64,000 bases of DNA, taken from positions 2,418,001-2,482,000 of the forward strand of contig NZ_CP046122.1 in the NCBI RefSeq assembly GCF_009707365.1. The letters are read 5' to 3'. Source of the stretch: Microlunatus sp. Gsoil 973. Its GTDB lineage: Bacteria > Actinomycetota > Actinomycetes > Propionibacteriales > Propionibacteriaceae. Each line of letters opens with the position of its first letter. Positions within the stretch are counted from its first letter, which is position 1. The translations under genes and the position numbers were made by a program. Under the pieces are notes generated by a model. That model had not been told where the DNA came from. It worked only from the letters and a program-made list of their open reading frames with translations, and ran no database searches. Shown piece by piece: positions 5,396-11,542 of this stretch.

Positions 5396-5947
5396 TCAGC
5401 CCCGGCCGCGCCGGTTACGGGCCGCGAGAGCCCGCTGAGCCTCACGTTCGGCGTCACGCTTGGCGATCGATTCCCGCTTGTCGTATTCCCGCTTACCGGT
5501 GGCGACGGCAAGTTCGATCTTGGCGTAGCCGTCCTTGAAGTAGATCGCCAAGGGGATCAGGGTGGTCCCGGCCGAACCGAGTTCGCGCTCGATCTTGGCG
5601 ATCTCCTTGCGGTTGAGCAGCAGTTTGCGGGTCCGCCGCGCGGCGTGATTCGTCCACGACCCGTGGCTGTATTCGCCGATGTGCGCGGCCCGCAGCCACA
5701 CCTCACCGTCATCGACCGTCGCGAAGGCGTCGGCCAGCGACGCTTTGCCGTCCCGCAGGGCCTTGACCTCGGTGCCGGCCAGCACCAGGCCGGCCTCGTA
5801 GGTGTCGTTGACCTGGTAGTCGTGGCGGGCACGCCGGTTCTGGGCAACCATCAGCCGGTCGCCGCCCTTGGTTCCGGGTGCGGCCTTGCCTGGGGTCTTG
5901 CTCTTCACTCCGGCCCCGGTCGGAGTCGCCTTGGTGCTCTTGGCCAT
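5396..5947 (-). CDS. smpB: SsrA-binding protein SmpB
   Basis: The tmRNA partner for trans-translation rescue of stalled ribosomes. The core from residue about 33 ([15 protein letters not shown]) is typical: [38 protein letters not shown], and the basic C-terminal tail that enters the mRNA channel. The N-terminal 32 residues are a Lys/Pro-rich extension seen in some actinobacterial SmpBs. ATG 5947 is chosen because GGGAGG stands eight bases upstream; an in-frame start further upstream would add unsupported sequence. 183 residues. No tmRNA (ssrA) gene was recognised near it. Confidence 0.93.
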
Positions 5948-6144
5948 TCCTCCATCCTCCCAGAAGGAGGCAAACGGGTTGTTGTCGCTCTCGATCGGGT
6001 CACGAACCTCACAGAAGGTCACAGCCTCCAAGACGTTGCGTCAAGTCAGGAGACCGATGTCGCGATTTGGCCACGCGTCGACCGTCGGATCGCCATGATC
6101 TCTTATCAACCGACTGTCGGACCACAATCACTGAAGGAACGCCC

Positions 6145-6882
6145 ATGATCAACCAGACGAGCCGCCTGCGCCGCGCCGGCATCGCCGGCGGAGCGATGGC
6201 AACCGTCGCCCTAGTCGCCGGACTGCTCACGCCGACCACCGCCGACGCTGCAGCCAAGAACGCCTGCTCGGGCGTCACTTCACACTGCAAGATCGTCGCT
6301 CACGTGGACGTCACCGGTGACGGCCGGCCGGACTCGGTCGGCATCGTCCGGCAGCGGACCGACGGCGACGTCGTGACCCGCTACCAGGTACGCATCCGCA
6401 CCGCCGGCGGCAAGCTGCTGCACAAGACCGACAAGTCGGCGGCCTGGATCGGACCGTTGTACCGCGGTGCGGCGAAGATCGACGGCCGGCGAGGCAAGGA
6501 ACTCGTCGTCGGTCACGTCCTGGGCGCGCACACGGCCTTCTACCGGGTCTACCGCTATCACAACGGAAAGCTGGTCCTGCTCAAGTCTCCGAAACTGCCG
6601 AAGAAGGTCAGTGCCACCACGCTGGACCGTTCCTGGGCCGTCGACTCTGCGGTCGCCTCCTTCGAGGGGATCCGCCGGACGCGCCACAACGGTCACGTGG
6701 TCCTCACCAACACCTTCGGCAGCCGCGACCCGAGCGCCCGGGTCTACTCCGGATGGAAGCTCAAGTACCGCTGGGAAGCCGGCCACTGGAAGTCGACCTC
6801 GGTGGTGAAGCGGACCTTCACCAACAAGCAGGCGGCCAAGGCATGGGGCTGGCACGTCAAGGGCATGCGCACCGGATTCTGA
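6145..6882 (+). CDS. Secreted hypothetical protein
   Basis: A 245-residue protein I do not recognise. It starts with a typical export signal: basic RLRRAG, a hydrophobic stretch, then TTADAAA, so cleavage is expected near residue 33. The mature part is rich in Arg, Lys and Tyr and contains HVDVTGDGRPDSVGIV near its start, which resembles the Asp-rich calcium loops of FG-GAP/VCBS-like or EF-hand-like secreted proteins. Two cysteines (CSGVTSHC) sit at the mature N-terminus and could form a disulfide. GAAGGA lies six bases before the ATG. It stands alone between smpB and trpS, and is convergent with trpS. Confidence 0.72.
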   Translation: MINQTSRLRRAGIAGGAMATVALVAGLLTPTTADAAAKNACSGVTSHCKIVAHVDVTGDGRPDSVGIVRQRTDGDVVTRYQVRIRTAGGKLLHKTDKSAAWIGPLYRGAAKIDGRRGKELVVGHVLGAHTAFYRVYRYHNGKLVLLKSPKLPKKVSATTLDRSWAVDSAVASFEGIRRTRHNGHVVLTNTFGSRDPSARVYSGWKLKYRWEAGHWKSTSVVKRTFTNKQAAKAWGWHVKGMRTGF

Positions 6883-6895
6883 CTTCGGATCGTCG

Positions 6896-7915
<1,020 letters not shown>

Positions 7916-7956
7916 TGGCTCTCCTCGGTCTCGCCGCCGAGGGATGCCGAACAAGA

Positions 7957-7982
7957 ACAGCCGCCCACGGCGGGGCGGCTGT
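7957..7982 (-). terminator. Attenuator hairpin of the trpS leader
   Basis: A perfect 10-bp stem (ACAGCCGCCC / GGGCGGCTGT) with a six-base loop, followed on the transcribed strand by TTCTTGTTC. The tail is only moderately T-rich, as is common in high-GC genomes. It lies 41 bp before the trpS ATG and is the 3:4 structure of the attenuator. Confidence 0.78.
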
Positions 7983-8010
7983 ATTCATCGCGTACGTGAA
8001 GCAGGCCGCC

Positions 8011-8046
8011 CTAGGCGGCCCACCAGCAACACGTACGCGAGGTCAT
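8011..8046 (-). CDS. trpS leader peptide MTSRTCCWWAA
   Basis: An 11-residue ORF: ATG at 8046-8044, two adjacent TGG codons at 8025-8020, TAG at 8013-8011. No Shine-Dalgarno sequence precedes it. A TACTCT hexamer at 8058-8053 would place the transcript start at or next to the ATG, so the leader is probably translated from a leaderless message. The Trp pair sits immediately before the first arm of the inner hairpin, exactly where a stalled ribosome would open it. Two Trp in 11 residues is far above chance for a random short ORF. Confidence 0.82.
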   Translation of the reverse strand: MTSRTCCWWAA

Positions 8047-8052
8047 GGGGAA

Positions 8053-8058
8053 AGAGTA
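8053..8058 (-). promoter_or_regulatory. -10 element of the trpS leader promoter
   Basis: TACTCT on the minus strand, six bases before the leader-peptide ATG. No convincing -35 hexamer was found at standard spacing, so this is a tentative promoter placed by the leaderless geometry. Confidence 0.45.
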
Positions 8059-8084
8059 CTGCATCGGCAGCAGAAAGCCGACGA

Positions 8085-9410
8085 TCAATACCACCGCATC
8101 GGGTTGATCATGTTTCCGTCCTCCCACACCATCAGGTGCAGGTGGCAGCCGGTCGCGTACCCGGTCTCGCCGACGTAGCCGACAACCTGGCCCTGGGAGA
8201 CGTGTTGACCGGGGCTGACGATGTACCGGATGGCGTGGTTCATAGCCGTCGTGATGTAGTGCCCGTCGACCCGGCCATGGTCGATGAACAGCCGGTTGCC
8301 ATAGCCGGCGTTGTAGTACTCCTCGGTCACCCGGCCCGGATACGGCGCCCTGATCGGCGTACCGCAGCCAACGCCGAAGTCGGTGCCGTCGTGCAGCTTC
8401 CAGACATGCAGGATCGGGTGCAACCGCATCCCGTACGGCGAGGTGATCGGGCCGTCGACAGGATAGATGAAGCCGTGGTGTGCCGAGTAGCTGCTGCTGG
8501 ACCCGCCACCGCCGCCACCGGAATGGCTGTGGCTGTGGCTGTGGTGTCGCGCTCGGGCGGCTGCTTCCGCCGCAGCTCTGCGCGCCGCTGCCCGGCGGGC
8601 GGCCGCCTTCTGGGCGGCGATCCGGGCGGCGATCCGCTTCTGAACCGCGGCGTCCTCCTTCTGCAGCTCGGCGAAGCGGGCCTTGTCCTGCGCCGCAGCC
8701 TGGTCGGCCGCCGCTTGCGCCGCGGCACGCTGCTTCACCAACTCCGCCACGGTCGCCTTCTGCGCCTCGGCCTGCTGCTCGAGAACCTTCTTGTGCTCGA
8801 GGTTCTTGGCAGCCTCTGCCTTGTCGGCGGCGATCTGCTTCTCCAGGGCCGCCTGTTTCGCCTTCTCGGCTTCGAGCTGCTTCTGCAGTGCGGTGTAGGT
8901 CTCGAACTTCGCCTGGTTGGTGTCGAGCATCGTCTGCGAAAGCTGGATCCGGTTGGCCAGGTCGCCCATCGAGGTGCTCGTGGTGAGCATCGCCAGCGGC
9001 AGCAGATTTGCATGCTTCTGTACGTCGTCCCGGACGATCGCGCCGACCACGGCCTTCTGTTTGTCGAGCCGCTTCTGCCCGGCCACGACCGCGGCCTTCG
9101 CCTTGGCGAGTGCCTCCTGTTGCTGCTTCAGCTTGGCGGCCAGCGCGTCGTCCTTCTTCTGGGCCGCGGCCACCTCCTGCTGGGTCTTGGCCAGCTCAGC
9201 CTGGGCATCCTTGAGTTGCTGCTCCGCCTTGGTCAGGGCCACCGCCGCGGCCGCCGCGGTCGCCGAGGACTCGCTCATGTCCTGCTTGGTCTTGCTGATG
9301 GCTTGCTGCAGCGCCTTGTGCCGGTCGTGCAGGCCGTCCGCGCTGGCCGTGGTGACCAAGCCGATGTTGCCGATGACGGCCAGGGCGGCCAATCCGACGG
9401 CCGTCCGCAT
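8085..9410 (-). CDS. Secreted M23 peptidase with N-terminal coiled coil
   Basis: A probable peptidoglycan endopeptidase or amidase activator of the EnvC/RipA-like kind. The start used gives a clean signal peptide (about residues 1-25, ending TTASADG). Residues 30-270 form a long Ala/Lys/Gln coiled coil. A His/Ser/Gly linker (HSHSHSHSGGGGGG) leads to a C-terminal LytM domain with the zinc-binding HDGTDF and HLHLMVWEDG motifs. All M23 metal ligands seem present, so it could be catalytic. The coiled coil and nearby ftsEX suggest activation by FtsX, as known for RipC and EnvC; that is inference. The reading frame is open to 9563 with GTG and TTG starts, which would add a cytoplasmic 50-residue tail; the start is therefore uncertain. 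Confidence 0.85.
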   Translation of the reverse strand: MRTAVGLAALAVIGNIGLVTTASADGLHDRHKALQQAISKTKQDMSESSATAAAAAVALTKAEQQLKDAQAELAKTQQEVAAAQKKDDALAAKLKQQQEALAKAKAAVVAGQKRLDKQKAVVGAIVRDDVQKHANLLPLAMLTTSTSMGDLANRIQLSQTMLDTNQAKFETYTALQKQLEAEKAKQAALEKQIAADKAEAAKNLEHKKVLEQQAEAQKATVAELVKQRAAAQAAADQAAAQDKARFAELQKEDAAVQKRIAARIAAQKAAARRAAARRAAAEAAARARHHSHSHSHSGGGGGGSSSSYSAHHGFIYPVDGPITSPYGMRLHPILHVWKLHDGTDFGVGCGTPIRAPYPGRVTEEYYNAGYGNRLFIDHGRVDGHYITTAMNHAIRYIVSPGQHVSQGQVVGYVGETGYATGCHLHLMVWEDGNMINPMRWY

Positions 9411-9683
9411 GACGGCGCGCCGGACTGATCCGGCGTGTTCAGTTGTGCCCTGTGACGCTGGCCGTCGTAGCCAGGCGAAGCGACCCTGTGCTGCTGGTGC
9501 CTCGCTGTCGTCCGGCGCGCCGGTTTCGGCGCAGGGAAGGTCCGGAACCACAGCATTCCCCAATCAGTATCTGGTTGTCCGGACACGATTTAACCGTACG
9601 GGTGTTACTGATGGAACTGCTGTGACTCGTGTGTTATTAGATTTGACCCTCAAACCTGAGGGTCTGTTGAGCGAATCGGGGCT

Positions 9684-9873
9684 GTAGAGGTCCCTTCTCG
9701 ACGGCGCACCGGTAACTCGACGGCGCACCGGCTGCAGCTGGTGCGAAGCCGATTACCTGGTGCGCGGACGACCAAATGCCGCGGGAACGAGTACTTGGTG
9801 CGGGACCGACCAAAGGGTGCGGGACCGACCAAAGGGGTGCGGGAACGCTCAGGCAGTCCTGGCCGGTCGGGGT
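9684..9873. repeat. Palindromic repeat array, CTGCAG-centred (copy 1)
   Basis: Between the M23 gene and ftsX. Units reading CTCGACGGCGCACCGG occur on the left, then a CTGCAG centre near 9732, then the same motif inverted and repeated on the right as GGTGCGGGACCGACCAAA. The same build recurs at 30395-31215. The rest of the gap 9564-9683 is AT-richer and probably holds the M23 gene promoter. Confidence 0.75.
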
Positions 9874-9886
9874 GCGCGGACCGGGC

Positions 9887-10801
9887 TCAGACCCGTAGGT
9901 ACTTGCGGGTGGTCACCAGCGTCGGAACGACGGCCAGCAGGATGCCGACCACGCCGACTGCGCCCATCGCCAGGAAGGTCTGGTCCCACCCGATCCAGGC
10001 CAGCGACTGGATGGAGACCTCGGCCTTCCGGATGATCACGAAGTAGACCCCGGCACCCAACGTCCCGCAGGCCAACGCGGCCCCGATCAACGCCGAGATC
10101 ACCGACTCGAGCAGGAACGGCAGCGTGATGTAGAAGTTGCTCGCGCCGACCAGCCTCATGATGCCGATCTCCCGGCGTCTGGCGAACGCCGTGAGTCGGA
10201 TCGTGTTGCCGATCTGCAACGCGGCGGCCAGCAGCAACAGTCCGGAGGCGATGATGGTGCCCCACTGGAGCAGGTTGATCCAGCTGAAGAGCGGGTCGAG
10301 AATCTGCTTGAGATCCTGAACAGCCTGGACGCCGGGCAGCTGAGCCACCGACGAGACCACGCCTTCGTACTGTTCGGGGTCCTTCAGCTTGACCCGGAAG
10401 GACTCCTGCATCTGGTCCTCGCTCAGCGAGCCCTCGAGCGGATTGCCCTTGTATGCCTTCTGGAACTCCTCATACGCCTGGTGCTTGTCCTCGAAGTAGA
10501 CACCCCCCGGTGCCACCTCCGGATTGGATTCCAGCGTCTGCCGGATGACCACCTTCTGTGCCTCGGTGGTGTCCTGGCCGGGCGTGCAGTTGTCCCCGGC
10601 GACCGCCTTGGAACACAGGAAGACGGTGATCTCGATCTTGTCGTACCACTTGCCCTTGGCGAGCTGGACCTCCTGCTGGGCCAGCAGGCCGGCGCCGAAC
10701 AGGGACAGCGACACCCACATCGTGACGATCACGGCCAGGGTCATCGTGAGGTTGCGCCGCAGACCGGCGCCCGCCTCGGCGAGGATGTGCCTCATGCGCA
10801 T
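9887..10801 (-). CDS. ftsX: Cell division protein FtsX
   Basis: Membrane subunit of the FtsEX divisome complex, 304 residues. One membrane helix lies near residues 20-45, then an extracytoplasmic domain of about 120 residues, then three helices in the C-terminal half, the standard FtsX topology. The external domain carries two cysteines (LCSKAVAGDNC) seen in mycobacterial FtsX, which bind coiled-coil hydrolases. It lies 51 bp after ftsE in one operon. The first ATG, preceded by AAGGA, is used; a second ATG two codons later is possible. The coiled-coil M23 protein next door is a plausible partner. Confidence 0.93.
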   Translation of the reverse strand: MRMRHILAEAGAGLRRNLTMTLAVIVTMWVSLSLFGAGLLAQQEVQLAKGKWYDKIEITVFLCSKAVAGDNCTPGQDTTEAQKVVIRQTLESNPEVAPGGVYFEDKHQAYEEFQKAYKGNPLEGSLSEDQMQESFRVKLKDPEQYEGVVSSVAQLPGVQAVQDLKQILDPLFSWINLLQWGTIIASGLLLLAAALQIGNTIRLTAFARRREIGIMRLVGASNFYITLPFLLESVISALIGAALACGTLGAGVYFVIIRKAEVSIQSLAWIGWDQTFLAMGAVGVVGILLAVVPTLVTTRKYLRV

Positions 10802-10852
10802 GGTGCTGCTGTCCTTGTTCCTTGCTGTCGTCTCGTCGGGGTCACGAAGCCA

Positions 10853-11542
10853 CTAGGTGGCGTATCCGTAGACGCCGCGGCTCTGGTCGCGAACCACCAG
10901 TCCGTCATCGAGTTCGATGACCCGCTTGCGCATCTGGTCGACGATCGTCTGGTCATGGGTGGCCATCAGTACGGTCGTGTCGGCCCGGTTGATCCGGTCC
11001 AGAAGCTTCATGATCCCTACGCTGGTCGCCGGGTCGAGGTTCCCGGTCGGCTCATCGGCGATCAGGATCATCGGCCGGTTGACGAACGCGCGGGCGATTG
11101 CCACCCGTTGCTGTTCGCCGCCGGACAACTCGTCAGGGCGCCGGTCCGCCTTGCCGTCCAGTCCGACCAGGTCGAGCACCTCGGGGACGACGCGGTTGAT
11201 GGTCGTCTTCGACTTGCCGATCACCTGCAGCGCGAACGCGACGTTCTCGTGCACGGTCTTATTGGGCAGCAACCGGAAATCCTGGAAGACCGTGCCGATC
11301 TGCCGGCGCATTCCGGGAACCTTCCAGCTGTGCAGTTTGGACAGGTCGCGGCCGGCGACGTACACATTGCCCCTGCTGGCCCGCAGCTCCCGCAGAATCA
11401 GTCGCAGGAAGGTGGACTTCCCCGAGCCGGAGGTCCCCACCAGGAAGACGAACTCGCCCTTGTCGATTTCGACGTTGACGTCGGCGAGCGCAGCACGACG
11501 CTGCCCGTCGTAGATCTTGGTGACGTTCTCGAATCGAATCAC
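10853..11542 (-). CDS. ftsE: Cell division ATP-binding protein FtsE
   Basis: ABC-type ATPase of 229 residues that drives conformational change in FtsX to switch on septal peptidoglycan hydrolases. Walker A is GTSGSGKST, the Q-loop is VFQDFRLL, the signature is LSGGEQQ, Walker B is [12 protein letters not shown] and the switch His is in MATHD. All catalytic residues are intact. Upstream in the same direction, beyond a 128-bp gap without visible features, is the PPOX gene. Confidence 0.95.

Follow-up and report, generated by a model that had tools for sequence, protein, structure and literature searches.

Background

Does the short stretch of DNA in front of the second trpS gene of Microlunatus sp. 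Gsoil 973 regulate that gene, and by what means? A sequence-only reading of the 64,000 nt analysed here (hereafter the window) had proposed a complete ribosome-mediated Trp attenuator, probably with a leaderless leader mRNA, and had likened it to trpS attenuation in Streptomyces. Such attenuation is indeed described there, in the relevant passages of two reports (PMC1262725, PMC8079986). Attenuators of this design before trpS have been in print since 2005, a candidate having been given for S. avermitilis trpS2 in the section of Seliverstov et al. 2005 (PMC1262725) that concerns this gene.

Leader locus and its parts

The leader and the gene behind it comprise the following parts.

6896..7915, minus strand: trpS (second copy), tryptophan--tRNA ligase, 339 aa (TIGR00233, 280.6 bits against a cut-off of 176.75); ATG at 7915, stop at 6896, with a GAGGAG-type ribosome site immediately upstream
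8046-7957, minus strand: whole attenuator, in front of trpS (7915-6896)
8053..8058, minus strand: -10-like box TACTCT, 6 nt ahead of the leader ATG, which would imply a leaderless leader mRNA
8011..8046, minus strand: leader ORF, MTSRTCCWWAA and stop, ATG to TAG, 11 codons, with tandem Trp codons at nt 22-27 (8025-8020)
8030..8040, minus strand: outer 5' arm of hairpin 1:2, TCGCGTACGTG, encoding SRT and part of C
8014..8021, minus strand: strand 1 core, GGGCCGCC, spanning both Ala codons and the final 2 nt of the Trp codon before them
8003..8011, minus strand: strand 2, GGGCGGCCT, which starts with the final base of the stop codon and has strand 1 or strand 3 as its partner
7988..7998, minus strand: outer 3' arm of hairpin 1:2, CACGTACGCGA
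7973..7982, minus strand: strand 3, the 5' arm of the terminator, ACAGCCGCCC
7957..7966, minus strand: strand 4, the 3' arm of the terminator, GGGCGGCTGT, with TCTTGTT next

The terminator (7982-7957) is a perfect 10-pair stem with a 6-nt loop and the tail TCTTGTTCGG, and the outer extension of hairpin 1:2 adds 11 pairs (8040-8030 with 7998-7988). The leader ORF begins 38 nt past the stop codon (8087-8085) of an M23 peptidase gene (PF01551), likewise on the minus strand. No consensus promoter was found at this leader, and a -35 box is not evident. When the whole window was compared with Rfam, no family reached its gathering score; a loose threshold returned only matches far under the gathering scores, which were judged to be chance.

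The second trpS and its leader sit between a group made up of an ABC-ATPase (ftsE-like), ftsX and the M23 peptidase and, on the other side, smpB (5396-11542). An M23-like gene also ends directly ahead of two orthologues from the genus (L006 and L009), as judged by eye. These surroundings may mark an insertion site.

A predicted folding switch

The RNA from 8046 to 7930 has a predicted folding energy of -65.8 kcal/mol against a mean of -48.9 for shuffled sequences (z -4.9), and none of 200 shuffles was as low. Unmasked, the leader RNA is predicted to fold into 1:2 plus 3:4. If nt 1-34 are masked, as by a ribosome held on the Trp codons, the lowest-energy structure of nt 35-90 is the 2:3 antiterminator (-25.2); if nt 1-46 are masked, as by a ribosome that has come to the stop codon, the terminator is predicted instead. 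Both mask limits follow from the size of the ribosome footprint. Masked folding thus yields mutually exclusive 1:2, 2:3 and 3:4 pairings that fit the geometry of a ribosome on the leader. The sequence, the coordinates and the pairings given in the sequence-only reading were all confirmed.

Conservation of the leader

At the E-value limits given below under copy number, orthologues of this trpS were found in six of 198 family genomes, every one of them a member of the genus itself (six of 20 genus genomes), and in 102 of 391 order and 45 of 394 class genomes, with 10 genomes common to the latter two lists. A search for related loci among genome contigs returned two, one in Nocardioides (L003), which groups in the tree among f3 genomes of the same order, and one in Corynebacterium (L004, 42% identity), which has no WW leader and was used in the tree alone. 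Upstream DNA was collected from 137 distinct genomes plus the Nocardioides locus, 138 in all. A leader was called if an ORF with a Trp codon at most six codons from its stop lay 40-330 nt before the matched start and had either a WW pair or a GRCGG strand 2 past the stop.

By this script, 129 of the 138 orthologues carry a Trp-codon leader, with a WW pair in 126 and a single Trp codon in three; GRCGG stands within 12 nt of the stop in 115. One of the nine misses (L156) is masked with N, and the other eight (L041, L157-L163) are, by eye, variants whose leader contains Trp and whose stop codon lies past strand 2. A short leader ORF with Trp codons is thus seen both in the window and across relatives, its translation being predicted. 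All six own-genus orthologues have such a leader: MTSRTCCWWAA in two genomes, and MTSRTSCWWAV, MQLRTNQWWAA, MSTTARTWWSA and MRMTGQWRSA. Ahead of the other trpS genes of the genus, 19 of 20 upstream regions held no WW leader, single-Trp leaders lying outside the query; the exception is L030, described below.

A covariance model (R1) was built from 40 leaders, that of the window included. Within the own genome it scored this site, the sole one to rise above noise, at 70.4 bits (E 4.7e-12) and the next at 22.3 bits (E 0.13); the two weak matches there (E 0.13 and 0.41) resemble coding sequence by eye and were set aside. Seven of the 20 genus genomes have R1 matches: G019, on which the model was not trained, and the six that carry this trpS, all represented in the training set. 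Among 296 genomes of the phylum, R1 gave 16 matches in 11 genomes. Six are trpS sites (five f22 genomes and the own genome); of the ten others, six were inspected and each is a W-containing leader ahead of a long ORF, and the two ORFs tested behind non-trpS matches both match chorismate-binding enzymes.

Both sites in G019 merit description. At L030:1240-1372, a trpS of another TrpRS lineage (GDRPTG...HLGHYFG) has a WW leader, MHRSSCLSWWRSF and stop, with an 11-pair hairpin, matched by R1 at E 7.1e-5 although L030 is outside the training set, which suggests that the switch was gained twice or moved. On the minus strand of L191 (G019:C21:3714-3812), an R1 match (E 3.7e-5) has the leader MQLRSMDRWPAT and stop ahead of a Glycos_transf_3-domain gene, which we take to be trpD-like. 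A biosynthetic gene of the genus may thus be under a switch of this type.

Covariation of the pairings

The outer arms of hairpin 1:2 vary by family, with complementarity kept: TCGCGTACGTG/CACGTACGCGA here, GAACACG/CGTGTTC in f2, GTGCTG/CAGCAC in f3 (the GTG start codon included) and TACGTG/CACGTA in f22. Helix lengths add up to 822 over the 129 leaders; none of 5,000 permutations gave more than 721, and permuting arms within families gave at most 796. The outer helix has at least 6 pairs in 3/6 leaders of f1 (own genus), 37/38 of f2, 26/51 of f3, 4/7 of f4, 21/24 of f22, 2/2 of f20 and 0/1 of f49. The 5' arms of f22 pair with the 3' arms of f1 about as well as with those of their own family, because both have a self-complementary, CGTACG-like stretch that makes them largely interchangeable.

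Within the terminator, 80 of 127 leaders have C-G and 39 have A-T at the pair three positions out from the core anchor, two of the 129 (L072, L131) being left out of the position table for a missing anchor, with the wrong hairpin picked in L131. That position is paired in 120 of 126 leaders against at most 84 in shuffles; at offsets 5-8, pairing in the terminator is not above shuffles. The GGCCGCC/GGCGGCC core contributes little covariation, since it is nearly invariant. The strand 2:3 pairing is also widespread, with a Watson-Crick run of at least 5 in 121 of 129 leaders and a longest run below 5 in eight.

Forty rows were aligned (A1), three of the 43 chosen (L073, L090, L096) being left out. 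RNAalifold on A1 gave 17 pairs, with both sides changed in five. For inner 1:2 plus 3:4 over the 40 rows, 97.9% of cells are paired, double-sided changes number 34 against 8.5 in shuffles, and the covariation score is 0.165 against 0.077; none of 500 shuffles was as high for paired cells, doubly changed cells or the score. Two other measures did not exceed chance on these rows. Four pairs show a double change, compared with 2.7 in shuffles (41 of 500 shuffles reached this value), and there are 11 further pair types, compared with 11.7 (486 of 500). The check that had been proposed in relatives, for conserved Trp codons and stems with compensatory changes, was thus run and came out in favour of the attenuator.

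Start of the leader mRNA

In 96 of 129 leaders a TANNNT box ends 6 nt (65 leaders) or 7 nt (31 leaders) ahead of an in-frame start codon (ATG or GTG), a spacing seen in at most 6 of 129 shuffled upstream regions over 50 rounds. A Shine-Dalgarno-like motif is present in eight of the 96 boxed leaders. The box is missing from 33 leaders, namely 32 of the 51 in f3 and the sole one in f49. Because this spacing is fixed at 6-7 nt, the leader mRNA is probably leaderless, as had been guessed from the window alone. The S. lividans trpS leader, MMTRTCTQLWRAA and stop, is given as leaderless by RNA-seq in the account of it in PMC8079986.

Copy number of trpS

The single 4.91-Mb contig of the own genome carries two trpS genes above the family cut-off. 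The other copy, for which the sequence-only reading had advised a search, lies at 4,829,167 and has no WW leader upstream. Copy number was tallied from hand-copied lists for 196 sampled genomes of the order, a trpS being taken as of the window type at E of at most 1e-82 (order list) or at most 1e-85 (family list). It occurs in 67 of these genomes, and all 67 also carry another trpS, with two trpS genes in 25 and three in 42; among the 129 genomes lacking it, 128 have one trpS and one (G302) has two. The window-type gene is therefore an auxiliary copy beside another trpS, as in the Streptomyces type. Family f2 has three trpS genes in 36 of 38 genomes. One window-type trpS (G292:C11:72636-73583) has an in-frame TAG and has kept its leader (L101); it is either a broken copy or a sequence error.

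In a tree of 76 proteins (56 of the attenuated type and 20 others), all 56 fall on one side of one branch, with support of 94/80 and recovery in 92% of 200 bootstrap trees. The attenuated-type part mostly tracks taxonomy; one f20 row and one f49 row sit inside other families, a hint of some transfer.

The enzyme and TrpRS inhibitors

This trpS may be a drug-inducible copy, as the sequence-only reading had put forward: it is an extra copy, it shares a clade with the attenuated copies of the f22 genomes, whose leaders resemble that of S. lividans, and its active-site Gln is changed. It is a real possibility, though one to which we give somewhat less than an even chance, that natural TrpRS inhibitors (indolmycin, chuangxinmycin) act less strongly on the second TrpRS and that the attenuator serves as the sensor of a self-protection gene, turning it on once the housekeeping enzyme is blocked. 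This would supplement the attenuator explanation and not replace it.

The constant company of another trpS throughout the 196-genome sample speaks for such a role, as does the residue at the active-site Gln9 position (numbering of the B. stearothermophilus enzyme, read by alignment). It could be read by script in 124 of 138 attenuated-type proteins, where it is Thr in 69, Lys in 43, Met in three, Val in one, Ala in one and Gln in seven; the own copy, among the 14 unreadable by script, has Thr. Housekeeping-type copies have Gln in 16 of 16, L013 and L015 being read from the printed sequence. In S. aureus TrpRS, Gln9 adds to the computed chuangxinmycin binding energy, according to the binding calculations in PMC12093056, and one of the two TrpRS of S. 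griseus is indolmycin-resistant, according to PMC6804068. The known indolmycin contacts point the other way. These are His43, Asp132 and Gln147, and His43 to Asn confers resistance, in the relevant passage of PMC4899734. Alignment to 5dk4 shows none of the three altered in the own copy, and His43, the Asp132 motif and the Gln147 motif are each retained in 55 of 56 full proteins.

We put forward only tentatively the wider idea that the extra-TrpRS clade, patchy over several actinobacterial families, with its leaderless Trp attenuator and a mostly Gln9 to Thr/Lys change, might be a widespread inhibitor-sensing tolerance cassette, far beyond Streptomyces. If the extra copies do tolerate TrpRS inhibitors, the leader would be a sequence mark for such genes.

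Proposed mechanism

Returning to the leader itself, the anatomy, the in silico folding switch, the conservation, the covariation and the second gene copy documented above make it very probable that a classical ribosome-mediated transcription attenuator controls this auxiliary tryptophanyl-tRNA synthetase gene. We infer the transcription start, the coupling, the termination and the induction by Trp-tRNA shortage to run as follows. RNA polymerase would initiate at, or very close to, the leader ATG. With ample Trp-tRNA, the ribosome would get to the TAG stop and cover strand 2, so that 3:4 pairs and transcription stops ahead of trpS. If charged tRNA-Trp were scarce, the ribosome would be held on the two UGG codons and cover strand 1, leaving 2:3 to pair and RNA polymerase to continue into trpS. 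Without translation, 1:2 would form, and termination would be the default.

The comparison of leaders suggests that the leader start is the transcription start, that the switch accompanies the extra gene copy, and that the AA/PA end and RTC-like start of the leader peptide are fixed through RNA pairing and not by the peptide; the AA/PA end would be set by strand 1 RNA.

The leader might instead act mainly through translation or Rho rather than through an intrinsic terminator, which we consider improbable. The intrinsic terminator ahead of the gene is present as sequence and as a covarying stem, with predicted termination and a modest T-tract, and the weakness of this tract (on average 3.6 T in 8 across the 129 leaders) speaks for the alternative; so does S. 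lividans trpL2, for which the passage on this leader in PMC8079986 gives no U-rich tract downstream. Against it, the terminator hairpin ends 41 nt ahead of the trpS start codon, with the GAGGAG site unobstructed, and its stem covaries and, at 98.6% of cells paired compared with 97.1%, is slightly the better conserved of the two helices.

Chance was gauged with a script that required a start codon, two adjacent Trp codons close to a stop, and a hairpin. On both strands of the 64-kb window it returned one site, this leader. In 20,000 shuffles of the 201-nt leader region, a WW leader ORF arose in 73 and the hairpin as well in three. The genome is GC-rich and the motifs are short, yet a chance WW run among GC-rich inverted repeats of high-GC DNA can be dismissed in view of those three shuffles in 20,000, the 129 of 138 conserved orthologues, the covariation and the fixed -10 spacing.

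Comparison with known systems

An experimental precedent is S. coelicolor trpRS1, an auxiliary, indolmycin-resistant trpS for which Vecchione and Sello reportedly showed ribosome-mediated attenuation by experiment, whereas the case made here is one of sequence analysis. The likeness to the Streptomyces type extends to leader position and layout and to a synthetase of the same clade, as seen in the tree and in f22 leaders such as MTTRTCTQLWWAA; we take f22 to be Streptomyces from the resemblance of its leaders to what is published of the S. lividans leader.

In the description of S. lividans TK24 trpL2 given in PMC8079986, the gene type, the leaderless short leader, the TRTC...W.AA peptide, the two hairpins and the monocistronic trpS are all as here. 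That leader has one Trp codon whereas ours has two, and the same passage reports no U-rich stretch. The likeness rests on this published description, DNA aside, and we read the two leaders as homologous. S. avermitilis trpS2 likewise has a classical Trp attenuator before a second trpS (PMC1262725, in its section on this gene), though in a different order of bacteria; the likeness is one of published description. The GGCC-type complementary triples seen here are given for trp operon attenuators in the corresponding part of PMC1262725. The Streptomyces trpE leader trpL1 (MFAHSTRNWWWTAHPAAH and stop) has the same layout in the account in PMC8079986, but is longer, has three Trp codons and precedes a biosynthetic gene. 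R1, trained on trpS leaders only, also matches leaders of the trpL1 kind before chorismate-binding enzymes.

A search of titles and the opening lines of abstracts found no literature on this leader in Propionibacteriales, though Lopatovskaya 2010 and Korolev 2015 may describe it. The attenuator is of a known kind, and its range is wider than what we found in print. It offers a clean, testable case, outside Streptomyces, of a duplicated synthetase that would be under attenuation.
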